Assembly (NCBI RefSeq): GCF_009739905.1
Contig: NZ_CP034279.1
Span: 3,162,001-3,226,000, forward strand
Direction: 5' to 3'
DNA from: Streptomyces ficellus
GTDB lineage: Bacteria; Actinomycetota; Actinomycetes; Streptomycetales; Streptomycetaceae
DNA: 64,000 bases
In this document: piece by piece, positions 8,605-20,787 of the stretch
Layout of the letters: each line of letters starts with the position of its first letter
Numbering within the stretch: position 1 is the stretch's first letter
The notes under the pieces: model-generated
Databases searched by the model: none
Told to the model about the DNA's origin: nothing
What the model saw: only the letters and a program-made list of their open reading frames with translations
Translations under genes and position numbers: made by a program

Positions 8605-8643
8605 GACCTGAACGCTACTGCGCCTGGCGCATACGCTTGGTGT
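8605..8643. promoter_or_regulatory. Divergent promoter region with two back-to-back -10 hexamers
   Basis: Only 39 bp separate the two start codons. TAGCGT (minus strand, 8612-8617) is 7 nt before the ppx-like ATG, and TACGCT (8632-8637) is 6 nt before the GTG at 8644. Both spacings put transcription start at or very near the start codon, so both mRNAs may be leaderless. The -35 regions would then overlap each other's -10, making mutual interference likely. Confidence 0.5.
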
Positions 8644-9528
8644 GTGCCAAAGACGAAGAAGGCGAAGTCCGCGAAGCTCACGAAGCCCGCGAAGCTTGCC
8701 GTACCGGATGTTCCCGACGAAAAGGGCCTGGACTTCCCCCGTGCGTGGGTGGAGTTCCCCGACCCGGCCGACGACGAGCAGGTCTTCCGCTGCGACCTCA
8801 CGTGGCTGACGTCCCGCTGGACCTGCGTCTTCGGCAGCGGCTGCCAGGGCATCCAGGCGGGGCGCGCCGACGACGGCTGCTGCACCCTGGGCGCGCACTT
8901 CTCCGACGAGGACGACGAGGAACGCGTCGCCTCCCACGTGGCACGCCTCACGCCCGACCTGTGGCAGTTCCACGGCGAGGGCACGTCGGCCGGCGGCTGG
9001 GTGCAGCTCGACGAGGACGGCGAGCGCCAGACGCGCCGCTGGCAGGGCTCCTGCATCTTCCAGAACCGGCCCGGTTTCGCGGGCGGGGCGGGCTGCGCGC
9101 TGCACATCCTGGCGCTGCGGGAGGGCCGCGAGCCGCTGGAGACCAAGCCGGACGTCTGCTGGCAGCTGCCGGTGCGGCGTACGTACGACTGGATCGACCG
9201 CCCGGACGACACCCGGGTGCTCCAGATCTCCATCGGTGAGTACGACCGGCGCGGCTGGGGACCGGGCGGCCACGACCTGCACTGGTGGTGCACCTCGGCG
9301 ACGTCGGCGCACGGGGCGGGCGAGCCGGTGTACGTGACGTACCGCCCGGAGCTGACGGAGATGATGGGCAAGGACGCGTACGACGTGCTGGTGGAGCTGT
9401 GCGAGGCCCGGCTGGCGTCGCACCTTCCGCTGGTGGCCCCGCACCCGGCGGACCCGGCCGCGCCGGTGGGGCCCGCCGCCCCGGGCGCGCCGGCGGCCCC
9501 GGGGACGGCGACGAACCCGGTGACGTAG
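8644..9528 (+). CDS. Conserved hypothetical protein with Cys-rich centre
   Basis: The 294-aa product starts [18 protein letters not shown], a Lys-rich tail. I know the protein as a conserved Streptomyces hypothetical but cannot name a function. The middle contains clustered Cys, His and acidic residues ([51 protein letters not shown]), suggesting a metal or iron-sulfur site. [13 protein letters not shown] is another Cys/His segment. The C-terminus is Pro/Ala-rich low complexity. From memory, similar CxGxCC-type actinobacterial proteins resemble YkgJ-like Fe-S/zinc proteins, but I cannot confirm this. The start GTG lacks a Shine-Dalgarno and follows a -10-like hexamer by 6 nt. Confidence 0.8.
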
Positions 9529-9562: not shown

Positions 9563-11335
9563 TCAAGGCTGCGGGGTGTCCGTCGACGGGCTCGCCGTGG
9601 GCGACGCCGTGTCCGAGGGGCTGGGGTCCGGGGACGGCGGCGGCGTCGAGGGCGCGGACGGGGTCGGTGTGGGCGTCGGGTCCGGCTGCTCCGGCTCGGT
9701 CCGGGTCGGCACCGGACTCGGGGACTGCGGCGGGGACGGCGCCGGGAAGCTCGGCTCCGGGCGCGGGCCGGGACCCGGACGGGACGCCCCGTGGCCGTCG
9801 ATCTCCACCACCGCGCCCGCCGGGTCGACCCCGACGCGGGCGGTCCAGGCGCCGGCGGGTTCACGGTCGTGGTCGACCGAGACGTACACCGTGACCGACC
9901 GGCCCGGGGCGAGCGTGCCGGAGGATCGGTCGGCGTACAGCCAGGGGGCGTTCGTCCACAGGGACCAGGCCACCGGCGCACCGCCCGACGCGGTGAGCGT
10001 CAGCATCGTCGTGTCGCCGCCCGACGGCTGGGCGGACACCGTGATCCGGCCGGGGCCCGCGCGCCCGGGGGCGGTGGGCGGGGGCGTACCGGTGCTGATC
10101 ACCTCGACGGACACGTGGGGCGCGCCGGGGGTGGCGGAGCGGCGCCCCGGGTCGGTCCGGGCGCTGCCCGCGTTCTCGTAGTGGTCGGCCCGGCCGTCCG
10201 GCCCGCCCGCCCCCGTGCCCGGCTCGTCCGCCTCGGCAGCGCTGACCGGGGCGCCGTCGGGGCCCTCGCTCGTCGGCGCCCCGCGGTGCGCCGCCCACAG
10301 GGCGAGCACCGGCGCGGCGACCACCGTGGCCACGACGGTCGTCGTCACCGCCCGCGCGCGCATCCGGTCGCGGCGGGCGGCGTGGTCCTTGGGGTCCAGC
10401 GGGAAACCGTCCCGCCCGAATCTCGGGCCGCCCGCCCGGGTGCGCGGGACGTGCAGCATCGCGATGTACGCCGCCGCCCGGGGCGCCTCCACGAGCGGCA
10501 GCTTCGCCGGGGTGACGGACGAGCCGGGCCAGGGCCCGACCGCCCCGGCGCGCTCGGCGGCGCGGCGGCAGCGCGGGCAGTCGTCGACGTGCCGGACGAG
10601 CTCGCGGCGCAGGGTCGCGGAGAGCAGCAGTTCGTTGTCCCCGGTGAGGCGGGCCACGGCCGGGCAGGTGCCGGTCTCGACGACGGCGAGCGCGGCGCGG
10701 GTGCGCTCCACCTCGCAGGCGGCTGCGGACAGCAGCTCGCGGGTCGCGGAGGCCTCCATGCCGAGGACGGCGGCGACGTGGGGAGCGGCCAGCTGGTGGC
10801 GCACGGCCAGTTCCAGCGCCTCGCGCTGCTCGGGCGTGGTGCCGGCCGCCTCGGGCCAGGCGAGCAGGGCCAGCTCGCGGTGGCGCTGTTCGGCCGTCCC
10901 GGGGGAGACCTGGGCGGTCGGCTGCCCGGGCGCGTGGGGCGCGGCAGGGGTCGTGCGCCCCGTGTGCGCCCCCTGGGGCCGCTGCCGGCGCCGGCGCCGC
11001 TGCTCGCCGAGCTCACGCAGGCAGGCCCACCGGGCGAGAGCGTACAGCCAGGCCCTGCGCTCCGGTTCGGCGCCGGGACACCGCCCGAACTGCCGCTCGG
11101 AGATGGCCAGTACGTCCCCCAGCACCACGGTCGCCACGTCGTGGTCGCAGAGCACGGACAGGCAGTACGTGAACAGCCCGTCGAGGTACGGCTCGTACCG
11201 CGCCGGCGGGCGCTGGGACAGGGTGCGGGGCCCGCTGCGGGGCGCGCGGCGCTGTGCCCGGTGTGCGCCGGTGGTGTGCGTAGGGGTTTCCAGCCTGCTG
11301 CTCGTCACCCGGCGACCGTAGGCAGTGGACGGCAC
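9563..11335 (-). CDS. Membrane protein fusing sigma-like, anti-sigma zinc-finger-like and BACON domains
   Basis: The product is 590 aa from GTG 11335, preceded by AGAAGGGG. Residues about 45-110 ([20 protein letters not shown] and [16 protein letters not shown]) resemble ECF sigma region 2. Residues about 165-215 ([16 protein letters not shown] and [16 protein letters not shown]) resemble region 4. H249-x3-C253-x2-C256 in [11 protein letters not shown] is the classic zinc-binding anti-sigma motif. A transmembrane helix follows near 330-350. Outside lie a Gly/Asp-rich linker, an Ig-like BACON-type domain (about 400-510; [19 protein letters not shown]) and an 80-residue Pro/Ser/Thr tail. The sigma parts look degenerate, so promoter recognition is doubtful. 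The protein may instead tether or titrate transcription factors. It is divergent from radA. Confidence 0.85.
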
Positions 11336-11515
11336 ACCCTTCGCACCCCTTCTGCAGTTTTAATCCTTACGGGTGAACGTATCCCTCAAAAGGGGACAGG
11401 AAGCGCACATTCCGCGCCGGTCACCCACCAGCGCCCCTGATGTCCCGGTCGCCACCCGAGCCCCGTGGGCGCCCGGGCGGGCGGTGTTGTCAGTGGGGCC
11501 CGCTACGGTCGTCGC

Positions 11516-12931
11516 ATGGCTGCCCGTACGAAATCCGCCAAGGACAGGCCCTCCTACCGCTGCACCGAATGCGGCTGGACGACCGCCAAGTGGCTCGGCC
11601 GCTGCCCCGAGTGCCAGGCCTGGGGCACGGTGGAGGAGTACGGCGCGCCCGCCGTCCGCACCACCGCCGCGGGGCGCGTGTCCACCGCCGCGCTCCCCAT
11701 CGGCCAGGTGGACGGCCGCCAGGCCACCGCGCGCTCCACCGGGGTGGACGAACTGGACCGCGTCCTGGGCGGCGGCCTCGTGCCCGGCGCCGTCGTGCTC
11801 CTCGCGGGCGAACCCGGCGTGGGCAAGTCCACCCTCCTCCTCGACGTCGCGGCGAAGGCGGCCAGCGACGACCACCGCACGCTGTACGTGACGGGCGAGG
11901 AGTCCGCGAGCCAGGTCCGGCTGCGCGCCGACCGCATCGGCGCGCTCAGCGACCACCTCTACCTGGCCGCCGAGACGGACCTGTCGGCCGTCCTCGGCCA
12001 CCTCGACGCGGTCAAGCCGTCCCTGCTGATCCTCGACTCCGTACAGACCGTCGCCTCCCCCGAGATCGACGGCGCCCCCGGCGGCATGGCCCAGGTCCGC
12101 GAGGTCGCCGGCGCGCTCATCCGCGCCTCCAAGGAGCGGGGCATGTCCACCCTGCTGGTGGGCCACGTCACCAAGGACGGCGCCATCGCCGGCCCGCGCC
12201 TCCTGGAACACCTCGTGGACGTCGTCCTGTCCTTCGAGGGCGACCGGCACGCCCGGCTGCGGCTCGTACGGGGCGTGAAGAACCGGTACGGGGCGACGGA
12301 CGAGGTCGGCTGCTTCGAACTGCACGACGAGGGCATCACCGGGCTCGCCGACCCCAGCGGGCTGTTCCTCACCCGCCGCGCCGAGGCCGTGCCCGGCACG
12401 TGCCTGACGGTCACCCTCGAAGGGCGCCGACCGCTGGTCGCGGAGGTGCAGGCGCTGACCGTCGACTCGCAGATCCCGTCACCGAGGCGCACCACGTCCG
12501 GCCTGGAGACGTCCCGCGTCTCCATGATGCTGGCCGTCCTCGAACAGCGCGGCCGCATCACCGCGCTCGGCAAGCGGGACATCTACTCGGCGACGGTCGG
12601 CGGGGTGAAGCTGTCCGAGCCCGCCGCCGACCTGGCCGTCGCGCTGGCCCTCGCCTCGGCCGCGAGCGACACCCCGCTGCCGAAGAACCTGGTCGCGATC
12701 GGCGAGGTCGGCCTCGCGGGCGAGGTCCGTCGTGTGACGGGCGTCCAGCGCCGGCTCGCCGAGGCGCACCGGCTGGGCTTCACGCACGCGCTGGTACCGG
12801 TGGACCCGGGCAAGGTTCCCGCGGGCATGAAGGTCACGGAGGTCGCCGACATGGGCGACGCGCTGCGGGTCCTCCCCCGCGCCCGCCGCCGCGCCGCCCC
12901 CGCGCCCCGGGAGGAGCCCGCGCAGGGCTGA
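11516..12931 (+). CDS. radA: DNA repair protein RadA
   Basis: RadA/Sms (471 aa) is a RecA-like branch-migration helicase that acts in recombinational repair. It shows the four-Cys zinc finger CTECG...CPECQ (Cys16, 19, 30, 33), Walker [10 protein letters not shown], the RadA-specific KNRYG motif followed by GATDEVG, and a C-terminal Lon-protease-like domain ([20 protein letters not shown]) lacking protease function in this family. Start ATG 11516 has no Shine-Dalgarno; TACGGT (11504-11509) ends 6 nt before it, so the mRNA may be leaderless. disA lies downstream. In Bacillus, RadA is known to interact with DisA and restrain c-di-AMP synthesis. Confidence 0.97.
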
Positions 12932-17420: not shown

Positions 17421-18005
17421 ATGTCGCACGGCGAGGTGCTGGAATTCGAGGAGTACGTACGCACACGGCAGGACGCCCTGCTGCGCAGCGCCCGGCGCCT
17501 CGTCCCGGACCCGGTGGACGCCCAGGACCTGCTCCAGACGGCGCTGGCCCGTACGTACGGCCGCTGGGACGGCATAGCCGACAAGTCCCTCGCCGACGCC
17601 TACCTCCGCCGCGTGATGATCAATACGCGTACGGAGTGGTGGCGCGCCCGCAAGCTGGAGGAGGTGCCCACCGAGCAGCTGCCCGACGCGTCCGTCGACG
17701 ACGCCACCGAGCAGCACGCCGACCGGGCCCTGCTGATGGACATCCTGAAGGTGCTGGCGCCCAAGCAGCGCAGCGTCGTGGTGCTGCGGCACTGGGAGCA
17801 GATGAGCACCGAGGAGACGGCCGCCGCGCTCGGCATGTCGACCGGTACGGTGAAGTCCACGCTTCACCGGGCGCTCGCCCGCCTCCGTCAGGAGCTGGAG
17901 AGCCGGGCCGTCGACGCCGACGTCCGGGCCCTGGAGCGTGACGGCCGTGCGGGGCGCGCGGACGGACGTGGCCTGGAACGGGGGCGGGAGCGGTGCGCGG
18001 CCTGA
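17421..18005 (+). CDS. sigE: ECF RNA polymerase sigma factor SigE (cell-envelope stress)
   Basis: SigE directs RNA polymerase to cell-wall stress genes. The 194-aa protein has region 2 (about residues 5-75; VLEFEEYVRTRQDALLRSAR and DAQDLLQTALARTYGRW) and region 4 (about 105-160; KVLAPKQRSVVVLRHWEQMS and AAALGMSTGTVKSTLHRALA). GGAGG lies 9 nt before the ATG. It has no neighbouring anti-sigma gene; in Streptomyces it is controlled at transcription by CseB/CseC. Its last 13 nt overlap cseA. The Arg/Gly/Ala-rich C-terminal tail (about 165-194) looks longer than in S. coelicolor SigE, which I recall as about 176 aa. Confidence 0.96.
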   Translation: MSHGEVLEFEEYVRTRQDALLRSARRLVPDPVDAQDLLQTALARTYGRWDGIADKSLADAYLRRVMINTRTEWWRARKLEEVPTEQLPDASVDDATEQHADRALLMDILKVLAPKQRSVVVLRHWEQMSTEETAAALGMSTGTVKSTLHRALARLRQELESRAVDADVRALERDGRAGRADGRGLERGRERCAA

Positions 18006-18712
18006 GCGCCAGAGACAGCGGGAACGGCACGAGCGGCACGAGCGGCACGGGCAGGATCCGGGCGGCGGGCACCACGGCGATGGCGGTGGCCGCCGCCGTC
18101 GGCCTGCTCACGGCCGGTTGCTCCACCGGCGGCACGGGGACCCGCGACGAGGGCGCGGCCCGGGCCGACCAGGGCACGCCGTCGAGTGCGCCGGCCCCCG
18201 CGTCGTCGGCGTCGTCGCGCATGAGGAAGGTGGACGCGGTCCAGCTGATCATGAGTGACCCGAAGGTCAGCGACCGGGTCAAGGAGGATCTGAAGCCGTG
18301 CGTGGCGGACGCCTACCCGGTGGACACCTCGTACGGGACGCTGACGGACTCTGGGGCGCCGGACGTCGTGGTGAACGTGCTGACGTGCGGGGACGCGGTG
18401 GGGGTCGGGACGTATGTGTACCGTCTCGGTGCCGCCAAGGACGACGGGAAGGGCACGGCGTACCAGAATGTCTTCTCGCTGGAGGAGCCGGCCGTGTACT
18501 CGACGATCGACCGGGGGGACCTGGTCGTCACCAAGCAGGTGTACGCGGAGGACGACCCGGTGTCGTATCCGTCCGGCGAGGACGTGATCACCTACCGGTG
18601 GGCGGGCAGCAAGTTCAGCGAGCACGACCGGGTGCACAACGAGTACAGCAAGACGGTCGGTGACGGTGAGATCGACGGCCCCGCCGAGCCGACCGCGCCC
18701 CCCAAGAACTGA
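17993..18712 (+). CDS. cseA: CseA lipoprotein, negative modulator of the SigE system
   Basis: CseA is known in Streptomyces as an extracytoplasmic lipoprotein that damps the CseBC-SigE response. The 239-aa product has a basic N-terminus, a hydrophobic stretch (about 25-40; TTAMAVAAAVGLLTAGC) and the lipobox LTAGC with the modified Cys near residue 43. A Ser/Ala-rich linker and a soluble domain with two Cys (KPCVADAY, VLTCGDAVG) follow. The start GTG 17993 lies inside the end of sigE, so translation is coupled. The gene reads directly into cseB. Confidence 0.92.
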   Translation: MRGLSARDSGNGTSGTSGTGRIRAAGTTAMAVAAAVGLLTAGCSTGGTGTRDEGAARADQGTPSSAPAPASSASSRMRKVDAVQLIMSDPKVSDRVKEDLKPCVADAYPVDTSYGTLTDSGAPDVVVNVLTCGDAVGVGTYVYRLGAAKDDGKGTAYQNVFSLEEPAVYSTIDRGDLVVTKQVYAEDDPVSYPSGEDVITYRWAGSKFSEHDRVHNEYSKTVGDGEIDGPAEPTAPPKN

Positions 18713-18751
18713 CCCCCGCACCTGATTCGAGAGCACGGAGAGTGGACGTCG

Positions 18752-19461
<710 letters not shown>

Positions 19462-19465
<4 letters not shown>

Positions 19466-20787
19466 GGACTCCCGCACTGCGCACCGGTGTGAGATGGAAG
19501 ATCTCGATCGCCATCGCCGCCGTGGGCGCGCTGGTCGCGGTCGCGCTCAGCCTCGTCGTCCACAACGCCGCCCGGGTGTCGATGCTCGGCAACGCCCGTG
19601 ACGTGCAGATGGAACGCCTGGTGTTCGCGCAGCGGATGTACGAGTCGGCCGCCAAGCCCAAGACCGACCCCAAGTTCGGGGCGAAGCTCAACGACCCGGC
19701 GCTGCCGCGCGAGCTGGACGAGCTGATGCGGGAGCGCCGGCGCGGGACGTACGTGCAGGAGCACGAGCAGGGCCCGCCGGACGTGTGGGCCGCCGTGCCG
19801 CTGGGCAACGGGGACGTCCTGTCGCTGCACAGCCAGTTCGCCAGCCGCAGCACGACGATCATGAAGGACCTGGACGAGGCGCTGATCGTCGGCTCGGTGT
19901 CGGTGGTGTTCGGCGGCTGCGCTCTGGGTGTGCTGATCGGCGGCCAGCTGTCGCGGCGGCTGCGGAAGGCGGCGACCGCGGCGGGGAAGGTCGCGCAGGG
20001 CAACACGGAGGTGCGGGTCCGGGAGGCCGTCGGCGGTGTCGTACGGGACGAGACGGACGAGCTGGCGCGGGCGGTCGACGCCCTGACGGACGCGCTGAAC
20101 GAGCGGATCGAGGCGGAGCGGCGCGTCACCGCGGACATCGCGCACGAGCTGCGTACGCCGGTGACGGGGCTGCTCACGGCGGCCGAGCTGCTGCCGCCGG
20201 GCCGGCCGACGGAGCTGGTGCGGGACCGGGCGCAGGCGATGCGCACGCTGGTCGAGGACGTGCTGGAGGTGGCCCGGCTGGACAGCGCCTCGGAGCGGGC
20301 CGAGCTCCAGGAGATCGCGCTCGGGGAGTTCGTGGAGCGCAGGGTCGTCGCGCTGTACCCGGACGCGGTGGTGCGGGTGGTGCACGAGTCGTGGGTGAGC
20401 ACCGATCCGCGCCGGCTGGAGCGGATACTGGGCAACCTGCTGGCGAACGCCGCCAAGCACGGCAAGGGCCCGGTCGAGGTGACGGTCGAGGGCCGGGTGC
20501 TGCGGGTCCGCGACCACGGGCCGGGGTTCCCCGAGGCGCTGCTGCGGGAGGGGCCGAGCCGTTTCCGTACGGGCGCGACCGACCGCGCCGGGCACGGCCA
20601 CGGGCTGGGCCTGACCATCGCGGCGGGCCAGGCCCGGGTGCTGGGCGCCCGGCTCACCTTCCGCAACGCCGCCCCGACGGGTACGGCCCCGGGAGCGGGG
20701 GGCGCGATCGCGGTGCTGTGGCTCCCGGAGCACGCCCCGACGGCGACGGGCAGCTTCCCGATCCTCCAGCTCCCCGACACGCCCTGA
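19462..20787 (+). CDS. cseC: CseC sensor histidine kinase
   Basis: CseC is the membrane kinase partner of CseB (441 aa). Transmembrane helices are near residues 13-33 and 140-161 and enclose an extracytoplasmic sensor loop of about 105 residues. A HAMP segment (about 162-215) follows, then His228 in IAHELRTPVTG, the N box NLLANAAKHG, the G1 box RDHGPGFP and the G2 box GHGLGLTIA. The signal is envelope damage, with antibiotics such as vancomycin being known inducers in S. coelicolor. A strong hairpin 29 bp after the stop ends the operon. Confidence 0.95.

Follow-up and report, generated by a model that had tools for sequence, protein, structure and literature searches.

A membrane-anchored sigma/zinc anti-sigma fusion protein with a worn sigma half, encoded beside radA in Streptomyces ficellus and its relatives

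The window (the whole stretch of Streptomyces ficellus DNA analysed, 64,000 nucleotides from a genome of 7.08 Mb in one contig) contains a single open reading frame of 590 residues at 9563-11335 on the minus strand, the position and strand first assigned to it. Both DNA and protein conservation climb at the GTG codon of residue 10 in 81 Streptomyces loci, and this codon (11306-11308) is probably the true start. This gene and radA (11516-12931, plus strand) point away from each other, as an earlier reading of the letters (hereafter the sequence-only reading) had noted. The fusion gene is convergent with an uncharacterised gene at 8635-9528 (plus strand), so that by layout it has no operon partner. 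The uncharacterised gene has no Pfam match at E≤0.001 and adjoins the fusion gene in 102 of 107 loci of the genus. Downstream of radA lie disA, a PAP2-like phosphatase gene, a mutY-like gene and sigE-cseABC. The features are collected in Table 1.

Table 1. Features of the fusion gene and its surroundings in the window. Residue numbers refer to the 590-residue frame as called.
Feature	Position	Strand	Basis or remark
Whole ORF, sigma-like/zinc anti-sigma/TM/BACON fusion	9563..11335	-	590 aa as called; full-length relatives
Probable true start codon GTG (residue 10, MTSSRLE)	11306..11308	-	conservation rise, 81 loci
Sigma region 2-like domain, degenerate, residues 45-112	11000..11203	-	sigma models, structure, dN/dS 0.25
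Residues 67-70, where the DAED (beta-prime clamp) motif would lie; most of its acidic charge gone	11126..11137	-	
W103, matched to the promoter melting wedge N88 of sigmaH	11027..11029	-	W in 81/81 Streptomyces rows
Sigma region 4-like domain, residues 153-219, without a basic recognition helix	10679..10879	-	dN/dS 0.20
Zinc anti-sigma domain with predicted fourth helix, residues 220-294	10454..10678	-	ligands 131/131; modelled helices
H249-x3-C253-x2-C256 motif	10568..10591	-	C224 codon 10664-10666
Transmembrane helix, residues 327-349, most constrained segment	10289..10357	-	sequence; dN/dS 0.08
BACON_2 domain, residues 428-516, extracytoplasmic by topology	9788..10054	-	Pfam; Z 10.5 to 4zmh
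Pro/Ser/Thr-rich tail, residues 517-590, weakly constrained	9566..9787	-	sequence
Intergenic block, likely promoter/operator of the fusion gene	11346..11404	.	conserved in 81-locus Streptomyces alignment
sigE-cseA-cseB-cseC envelope-stress locus	17421-20787	+	CseB, CseC equivalog models above cut-off

The conserved intergenic block is a candidate, and a likely one, for the promoter/operator of the fusion gene. Beyond the 81 loci, one or other of its core words turned up in just 3 of 27 additional loci; the 3 same-genus loci among these 27 had neither. The block's consensus over the 81 Streptomyces loci contains an imperfect inverted repeat, CCCCTTTTGAG / CTCAAGGGG. Upstream of radA (11487-11509, plus strand) the sequence TTGTCAGTG-N8-TACGGT occurs, which we take to resemble a RecA-NDp/PafBC DNA-damage promoter; the same type of pattern is present somewhere in 34 of 80 related loci.

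A profile built from 46 members (the window protein and 45 of the 80 loci, picked for diversity) matched 77 of 296 genomes sampled from the class, 28 of them from the same genus; no member of the genus stood among the 20 misses listed, and there were 199 further misses. Outside the genus, many matches covered the sigma-zinc part only, in single open reading frames of about 450-700 residues. The family sample is that of GTDB code f1, taken as Streptomycetaceae, and its genera are GTDB genera, some of them perhaps Streptomyces elsewhere. In this sample all 17 genera and 198 of 200 genomes matched, some matches being partial; a deeper search of the two missing genomes gave one weak match in G358 and none in G328. 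No internal stop was found among the family matches listed from both samples. This distribution, with the fusion present in 80 Streptomyces loci and in loci of other genera, rules out the possibility raised at the outset that two genes had been joined by a sequencing error. In one fused sigma gene (L123:4920-6452, plus strand) the Pro-rich tail becomes Arg-rich part-way, compared with the close relative L126, perhaps through a frameshift.

The neighbourhood is also kept. The radA gene was located in every genus locus but L067 (106 of 107) and in all 34 family loci fetched, which represent the genus and 16 other genera. This looks like conserved gene order, and as the fusion gene is divergent and outside the radA operon it gives no evidence for a role in repair. 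In two of the 34 family loci a second copy lies between the fusion gene and radA; this more diverged sigma-like/zinc/TM/BACON copy was seen in two genera, at L154:2202-4208 (plus strand) and as the ORF 6264-8804 of L173 (minus strand).

Sequence and model analyses confirmed the domain plan: a single polypeptide begins with an ECF fold of sigma2 and sigma4 and continues through a zinc anti-sigma domain and one membrane helix into a BACON domain, with a tail rich in Pro, Ser and Thr. The profile searches that the sequence-only reading had proposed as a check bore this plan out for the BACON domain. BACON_2 exceeded the Pfam cut-off in the window protein (residues 428-499, E 9.9e-7, 29 bits against 25) and was detected in 46 of 46 Streptomyces members at E≤0.1 and in 29 of 30 proteins from other genera at E≤0.001. 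The zf-HC2 match was no more than suggestive (E 0.059, 13.9 bits against a cut-off of 22.2); this model discriminates poorly in the family, since a relative with an intact sigma part, L113, also falls under the cut-off (18.9 bits). In the window protein the Sigma70 Pfam models gave no match and no receiver domain was found by Pfam at E≤10, while a PDB sequence search with this protein alone returned a low-complexity and an MSP-like match only. Arg residues flank the hydrophobic helix 327-349 on its N side which, by the positive-inside rule, indicates an N-in/C-out topology.

NCBIfam sigma models matched the window protein weakly (E about 1e-4; PRK12513 with E 1.5e-4 over residues 53-201), and PRK12513 was detected at E≤0.01 in 41 of the 46 Streptomyces members (best E 2.8e-7). 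Among the same 46, Pfam at E≤0.1 recognised Sigma70_r4_2 in 24 and Sigma70_r2 in 5, the best E for the latter being 0.015. At E≤0.001, Sigma70_r2 matched none of the 76 Streptomycetaceae proteins scanned, the 30 from other genera included; it matched all 13 of the intact fused relatives from beyond the family. Sigma70_r4_2 still matched 7 of the 30 other-genus proteins. Together, the PRK12513 matches and a two-domain superposition on ECF sigma factors (see below) put the homology beyond chance. The resemblance to sigma regions 2 and 4 noticed earlier is thus borne out, and the sigma ancestry of the N-terminal part is real but worn.

The zinc ligands H249, C253 and C256 had been correctly located, but the motif is larger than Hx3Cx2C and reads C224-x24-H249-x3-C253-x2-C256. 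The likely ligand C224 had been overlooked; we take it to be the upstream fourth ligand, after RsrA. Not one of the 131 rows (81 from Streptomyces, 30 from other genera, 20 from outside the family) lacks any of the four residues, which are also among the invariant columns in an alignment of 25 diverse rows. All four are likewise found in the three deep same-genus loci L186-L188, in L177 and in two tandem copies, none of which has the aspartate D70 discussed below. Candidate helices 1 and 4 are predicted by the models at residues 225-231 and 286-294. An Hx3Cx2C motif across helices 2 and 3 is the mark of zinc-binding class I anti-sigma domains, in which helix 1 contacts sigma4 and helix 4 contacts sigma2 (PMC7406223; here and below, PMC numbers stand for papers available in part). 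By its ligand motif the domain is likely a class I zinc anti-sigma (ZAS) domain, and zinc binding is predicted.

In order to evaluate the state of the sigma half, single positions were counted over 111 Streptomycetaceae rows (the window, the 80 related loci and 30 other-genus rows) and compared with 20 rows from outside. The 80 loci are the best 80 of at least 508 relatives, 79 titled Streptomyces and one Microtetraspora glauca; the deep same-genus loci, L177 and the two tandem copies just mentioned were left out. The outside rows derive from regions of 20 of the 49 matching outside-genus genomes, which gave 22 fused ORFs, of which the near-duplicates L121 and L125 were dropped. Their division into 13 intact and 7 intermediate rows was drawn after viewing the alignment; the comparison of family with outside rows is independent of this division.

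The acidic DAED motif of sigma2 touches the beta-prime clamp and is essential (PMC8103513). Its last residue, D70, was present in 13 of the 20 outside rows versus 1 of the 111 family rows (one of the 81 from Streptomyces); the window protein has V70. Glutamate occupies this position in 17 more family rows, which brings D or E to 18 of 111. As a control, the clamp aspartate was present in all eight other ECF sequences of the window's genome, read by eye. SigmaH of M. tuberculosis uses N88 as the melting wedge, and transcription suffers when alanine replaces it; R186 of the same protein reads the -35 element (PMC6411747). Positions 103 and 204 correspond to these two residues as read from sequence. 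Of the 20 outside rows 10 have N103, and no family row does: all 81 Streptomyces rows carry W there, and none of the 30 others has N. A basic residue at 204 was found in 13 of 20 outside rows versus 11 of 111 family rows, all 11 being Arg in the 30 other-genus rows and none being in the 81 from Streptomyces. R206 was found in 17 of 20 outside rows versus 2 of 111 family rows (0 of 81 Streptomyces, 2 of 30 other-genus). The window protein, like all 81 Streptomyces rows, has none of N103, basic 204 and R206. The mean charge of the recognition helix was -1.79 in the 81 Streptomyces rows, -1.33 in the 30 others, -0.43 in the 7 intermediate and +2.62 in the 13 intact rows, and it was positive in 0 of 111 family rows.

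Not every position has changed in this way. All 131 rows have W96 (W81 of sigmaH), and 109 of the 111 family rows have L or I at position 100; both correspond to -10 pocket residues, and some residual sigma function is therefore possible. Three further residues mark the family: P161 (111 of 111 rows) and E162 (110 of 111) occur in 0 of 20 outside rows and are new to Streptomycetaceae, and W160 is present in 111 of 111 family rows and 5 of 20 outside. Of what characterises a functional ECF sigma factor, the folds were recovered; the Sigma70_r2 cut-off was not reached, and the D70 clamp motif and promoter-reading residues were absent. These alignments show that the residues contacting polymerase and promoter are largely lost in the Streptomycetaceae fusion, in agreement with the earlier description of the sigma parts as degenerate.

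The worn part is nevertheless under purifying selection. Median dN/dS values, obtained by a simple counting method on up to 600 of 3240 pairs with fairly diverged synonymous sites, were 0.25 for sigma2, 0.20 for sigma4, 0.32 for the zinc domain and 0.08 for the membrane helix, and 0.50, 0.70 and 0.65 for BACON, linker and tail respectively. This indicates that the sigma part is retained for something. In a tree with the eight ordinary ECF proteins of the window's genome as outgroup, the fused rows formed one group (100/99), and the 46 degenerate rows (GTDB family code f1 and seven of f17) formed one clade (96/97) nested in intact rows. This rooted tree was made without L171, L172, L177 and the two tandem copies and with ten of 15 Streptomyces rows thinned, and its long outgroup branches were flagged. 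The intact motif of the outgroup ECFs and outside relatives, together with the nested clade, supports a change from intact to degenerate. The descent of a membrane sensor-like protein from a sigma/anti-sigma pair, which the sequence-only reading had suggested, is supported too.

One relative bears on the locus itself. L113, from the sole member of its order in the sample (genome G007), stands among the intact rows of the tree and has the same plan with an intact sigma part (Sigma70_r2 E 6e-11, Sigma70_r4_2 E 5e-7). Its C-terminal stretch matches the BACON part of the family profile, but no Pfam BACON match was found. It shares radA, disA, the uncharacterised gene, and TIM-barrel, tetR and mutY neighbours with the family loci; its gene order differs in that it lies on radA's strand, with the uncharacterised gene in between. 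An intact sigma in so similar a neighbourhood suggests that the intact state is the older one at the radA locus, on the evidence of one contig from an assembly of about 970 contigs with 6% contamination.

The AlphaFold modelling proposed earlier recovered the sigma folds. The cytoplasmic model (pLDDT 88.3, pTM 0.78) gave its best two-domain match with RpoE of the RpoE-NepR complex (Z 13.0, 147 residues, 3.7 A), followed by SigW-RsiW in the zinc form (Z 12.0, 141 residues, 4.0 A) and CnrH-CnrY (Z 12.0, 140 residues, 3.6 A); with helical folds, a Z of about 13 does not decide the matter. The top two-domain matches were thus anti-sigma-bound sigma factors, and several polymerase-bound ones aligned over one domain or with an rmsd over 20 A. 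However, a two-domain match was also obtained with free SigG1 (Z 11.3, 128 residues, 3.4 A), and only one domain aligned for sigmaE-RseA, AlgU-MucA and BldN-RsbN, so the closed state is not singled out. Moreover, AlphaFold was trained on complexes of this kind, which may bias it towards closed arrangements. What is predicted is a compact cytoplasmic unit with sigma2 and sigma4 placed as in several anti-sigma-bound sigma factors; a cis-locked state fits these matches, short of proof. In a longer model, residues 387-477 (426-516 of the protein) superposed on a domain of the GH115 enzyme 4zmh (Z 10.5, 89 residues, 1.8 A), and this Ig-like fold agrees with the above-cut-off BACON_2 match.

The sequence-only reading had regarded the fusion as remarkable in itself, but proteins joining sigma, zinc anti-sigma and membrane parts are already described as ECF48, ECF52/SCO4117 and ECF53 (PMC8999054, PMC5826349). 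Like SCO4117 of S. coelicolor (ECF52) and the other two groups, the window protein combines an ECF sigma, a zinc anti-sigma domain, a membrane helix and a long extracytoplasmic part in one polypeptide. It differs from them in carrying BACON in place of NPCBM or CAP, in a region 2 that Pfam does not recognise as Sigma70_r2, in the lost key residues and in the radA neighbourhood. The fusion architecture is therefore known, and what stands out is the loss of the sigma contact residues. The window's genome encodes two further fused proteins, L172, with an NPCBM end and a SCO4117-like plan, and L171, with a CAP end; the latter (L171:3128-5869, plus strand, genome positions 498500-509500) is a fused sigma-zinc-TM protein with a terminal CAP domain.

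A literature search for a BACON-sigma protein returned one table row, in the part of PMC11256431 available, and no paper on its function. In this row S. venezuelae RS15920, a gene reported as up in three ECF deletions, is entered among the sigma factor genes with the domains "r4, BACON". RS15950 precedes a gene for a 254-aa protein and a two-component system (PMC11256431), and its number places it six genes further along than RS15920, where sigE also stands relative to the fusion gene in the window. By gene order RS15920 is thus very likely the orthologue of the fusion gene, and the missing r2 in its row agrees with the decay of the sigma part.

Together, these results make it on balance probable that the protein is a membrane-anchored, cis-inhibited sigma/anti-sigma fusion of the ECF48/52/53 plan whose sigma half has become a pseudo-sigma in Streptomycetaceae. 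The fusion now probably acts as a signalling clamp rather than as a gene switch. The BACON domain would meet a ligand, glycan or protein, outside the cell, and the signal would cross through the highly conserved membrane helix by a conformational change or by intramembrane proteolysis, upon which the closed cytoplasmic unit would open or be released. Proteolytic release seems plausible by analogy with IutY, which is activated by proteolysis, and SCO4117, which is thought to be (PMC8999054, PMC5826349). IutY of Pseudomonas putida (ECF243) likewise joins sigma and membrane anti-sigma in one protein, but is a working sigma in iron-starvation cell-surface signalling (PMC8999054). As the released fragment should read promoters poorly, the output would differ from that of IutY and SCO4117 and would be a protein-protein switch instead of promoter recognition: either the zinc anti-sigma domain may be freed for another sigma factor, or the pseudo-sigma may serve as a decoy for another anti-sigma factor. 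No trans partner of the fusion protein was found.

More tentatively, since we would give it less than an even chance, the pseudo-sigma may have left transcription altogether across the family and may work as a partner switch in the manner of PhyR, locked at the membrane by the zinc anti-sigma domain to which it is fused. The likeness to PhyR lies in a sigma fold that does not serve transcription, and PhyR_sigma-like Pfam models matched 10 of the 46 members at E≤0.1 (best 0.0021), with a structural match to 4qic (Z 10.8, 124 residues). Unlike the alphaproteobacterial PhyR, the fusion has a zinc anti-sigma domain and a membrane anchor in cis, and no receiver domain was found in it.

That the protein is still a working, divergent sigma factor of the ECF48/52/53 type, freed by proteolysis and using an unusual promoter, perhaps with a helper protein, is unlikely. 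It has the plan of SCO4117, whose truncated form still affects development (PMC5826349), and its likely S. venezuelae orthologue was classed as a sigma factor gene (PMC11256431); the retained W96 and L/I100 would also fit. The 18 family rows with D or E at 70, the 11 other-genus rows with R204 and the 7 with Sigma70_r4_2 speak against the pseudo-sigma reading. Against a working sigma stand the loss of D70 in 110, of N103 in 111 and of Arg206 in 109 of 111 rows, a recognition helix that is never positive and a Sigma70_r2 model that recognises none of the 76 proteins. We consider it distinctly improbable that the protein is an envelope or scaffold protein in which the sigma-like part is a mere fold, with no output via sigma or anti-sigma partners. 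The lost promoter-reading residues, the family-new P161 and E162, the extracellular BACON domain and the Pro-rich tail could be so explained, but invariant zinc ligands and a membrane helix with a dN/dS of 0.08 exceed the needs of a scaffold.

Two further explanations were set aside. Phosphorylation of Thr69 could restore the negative charge of the DAED motif for polymerase binding, as in ECF43/EcfP (PMC8103513), and in Streptomyces Thr69 is found in 76 of 81 rows while 55 of 81 have no acidic residue at 67-70. Such a kinase switch is nonetheless a slim prospect: Thr69 occurs in 2 and any Ser/Thr at 67-70 in 10 of the 30 other-genus rows, the lost promoter residues are left unexplained, and no Ser/Thr kinase family was among the matches listed for 12 neighbouring genes (three without a match). 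Slimmest of all is a membrane-tethered regulator of the neighbouring envelope-stress factor SigE, suggested by gene order, by the zinc anti-sigma domain and by the description of sigmaE as lacking anti-sigma regulation (PMC6767563). Its distribution weakens the idea: the 19 family genomes concerned and G007 all have the fusion, yet sigE-cseABC was seen beside 9 of the 19 loci and not detected in the stretches retrieved for the remaining 10 and for G007.

As for the sigE locus itself, eight of these nine loci belong to other GTDB genera, which may be splits of Streptomyces; a 2019 paper described the operon as apparently absent outside Streptomyces (PMC6767563). By gene count, the S. coelicolor orthologue of the fusion gene would fall under the prefix SCO335, a string not found in the main text of that sigmaE regulon paper.

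Fused sigma/anti-sigma proteins are little studied, and this one is near-universal in the family sample although most of the equipment for promoter reading is gone from its sigma half. If the sigma half is indeed a pseudo-sigma, a transcription factor would have become a pure signalling part, with intact relatives available for comparison. For annotators there is a caution, as the likely orthologue has already been counted among sigma factors in one paper (PMC11256431). If the PhyR-like reading were true, it would be a case of sigma mimicry in Actinobacteria that evolved from a fused sigma/anti-sigma protein.
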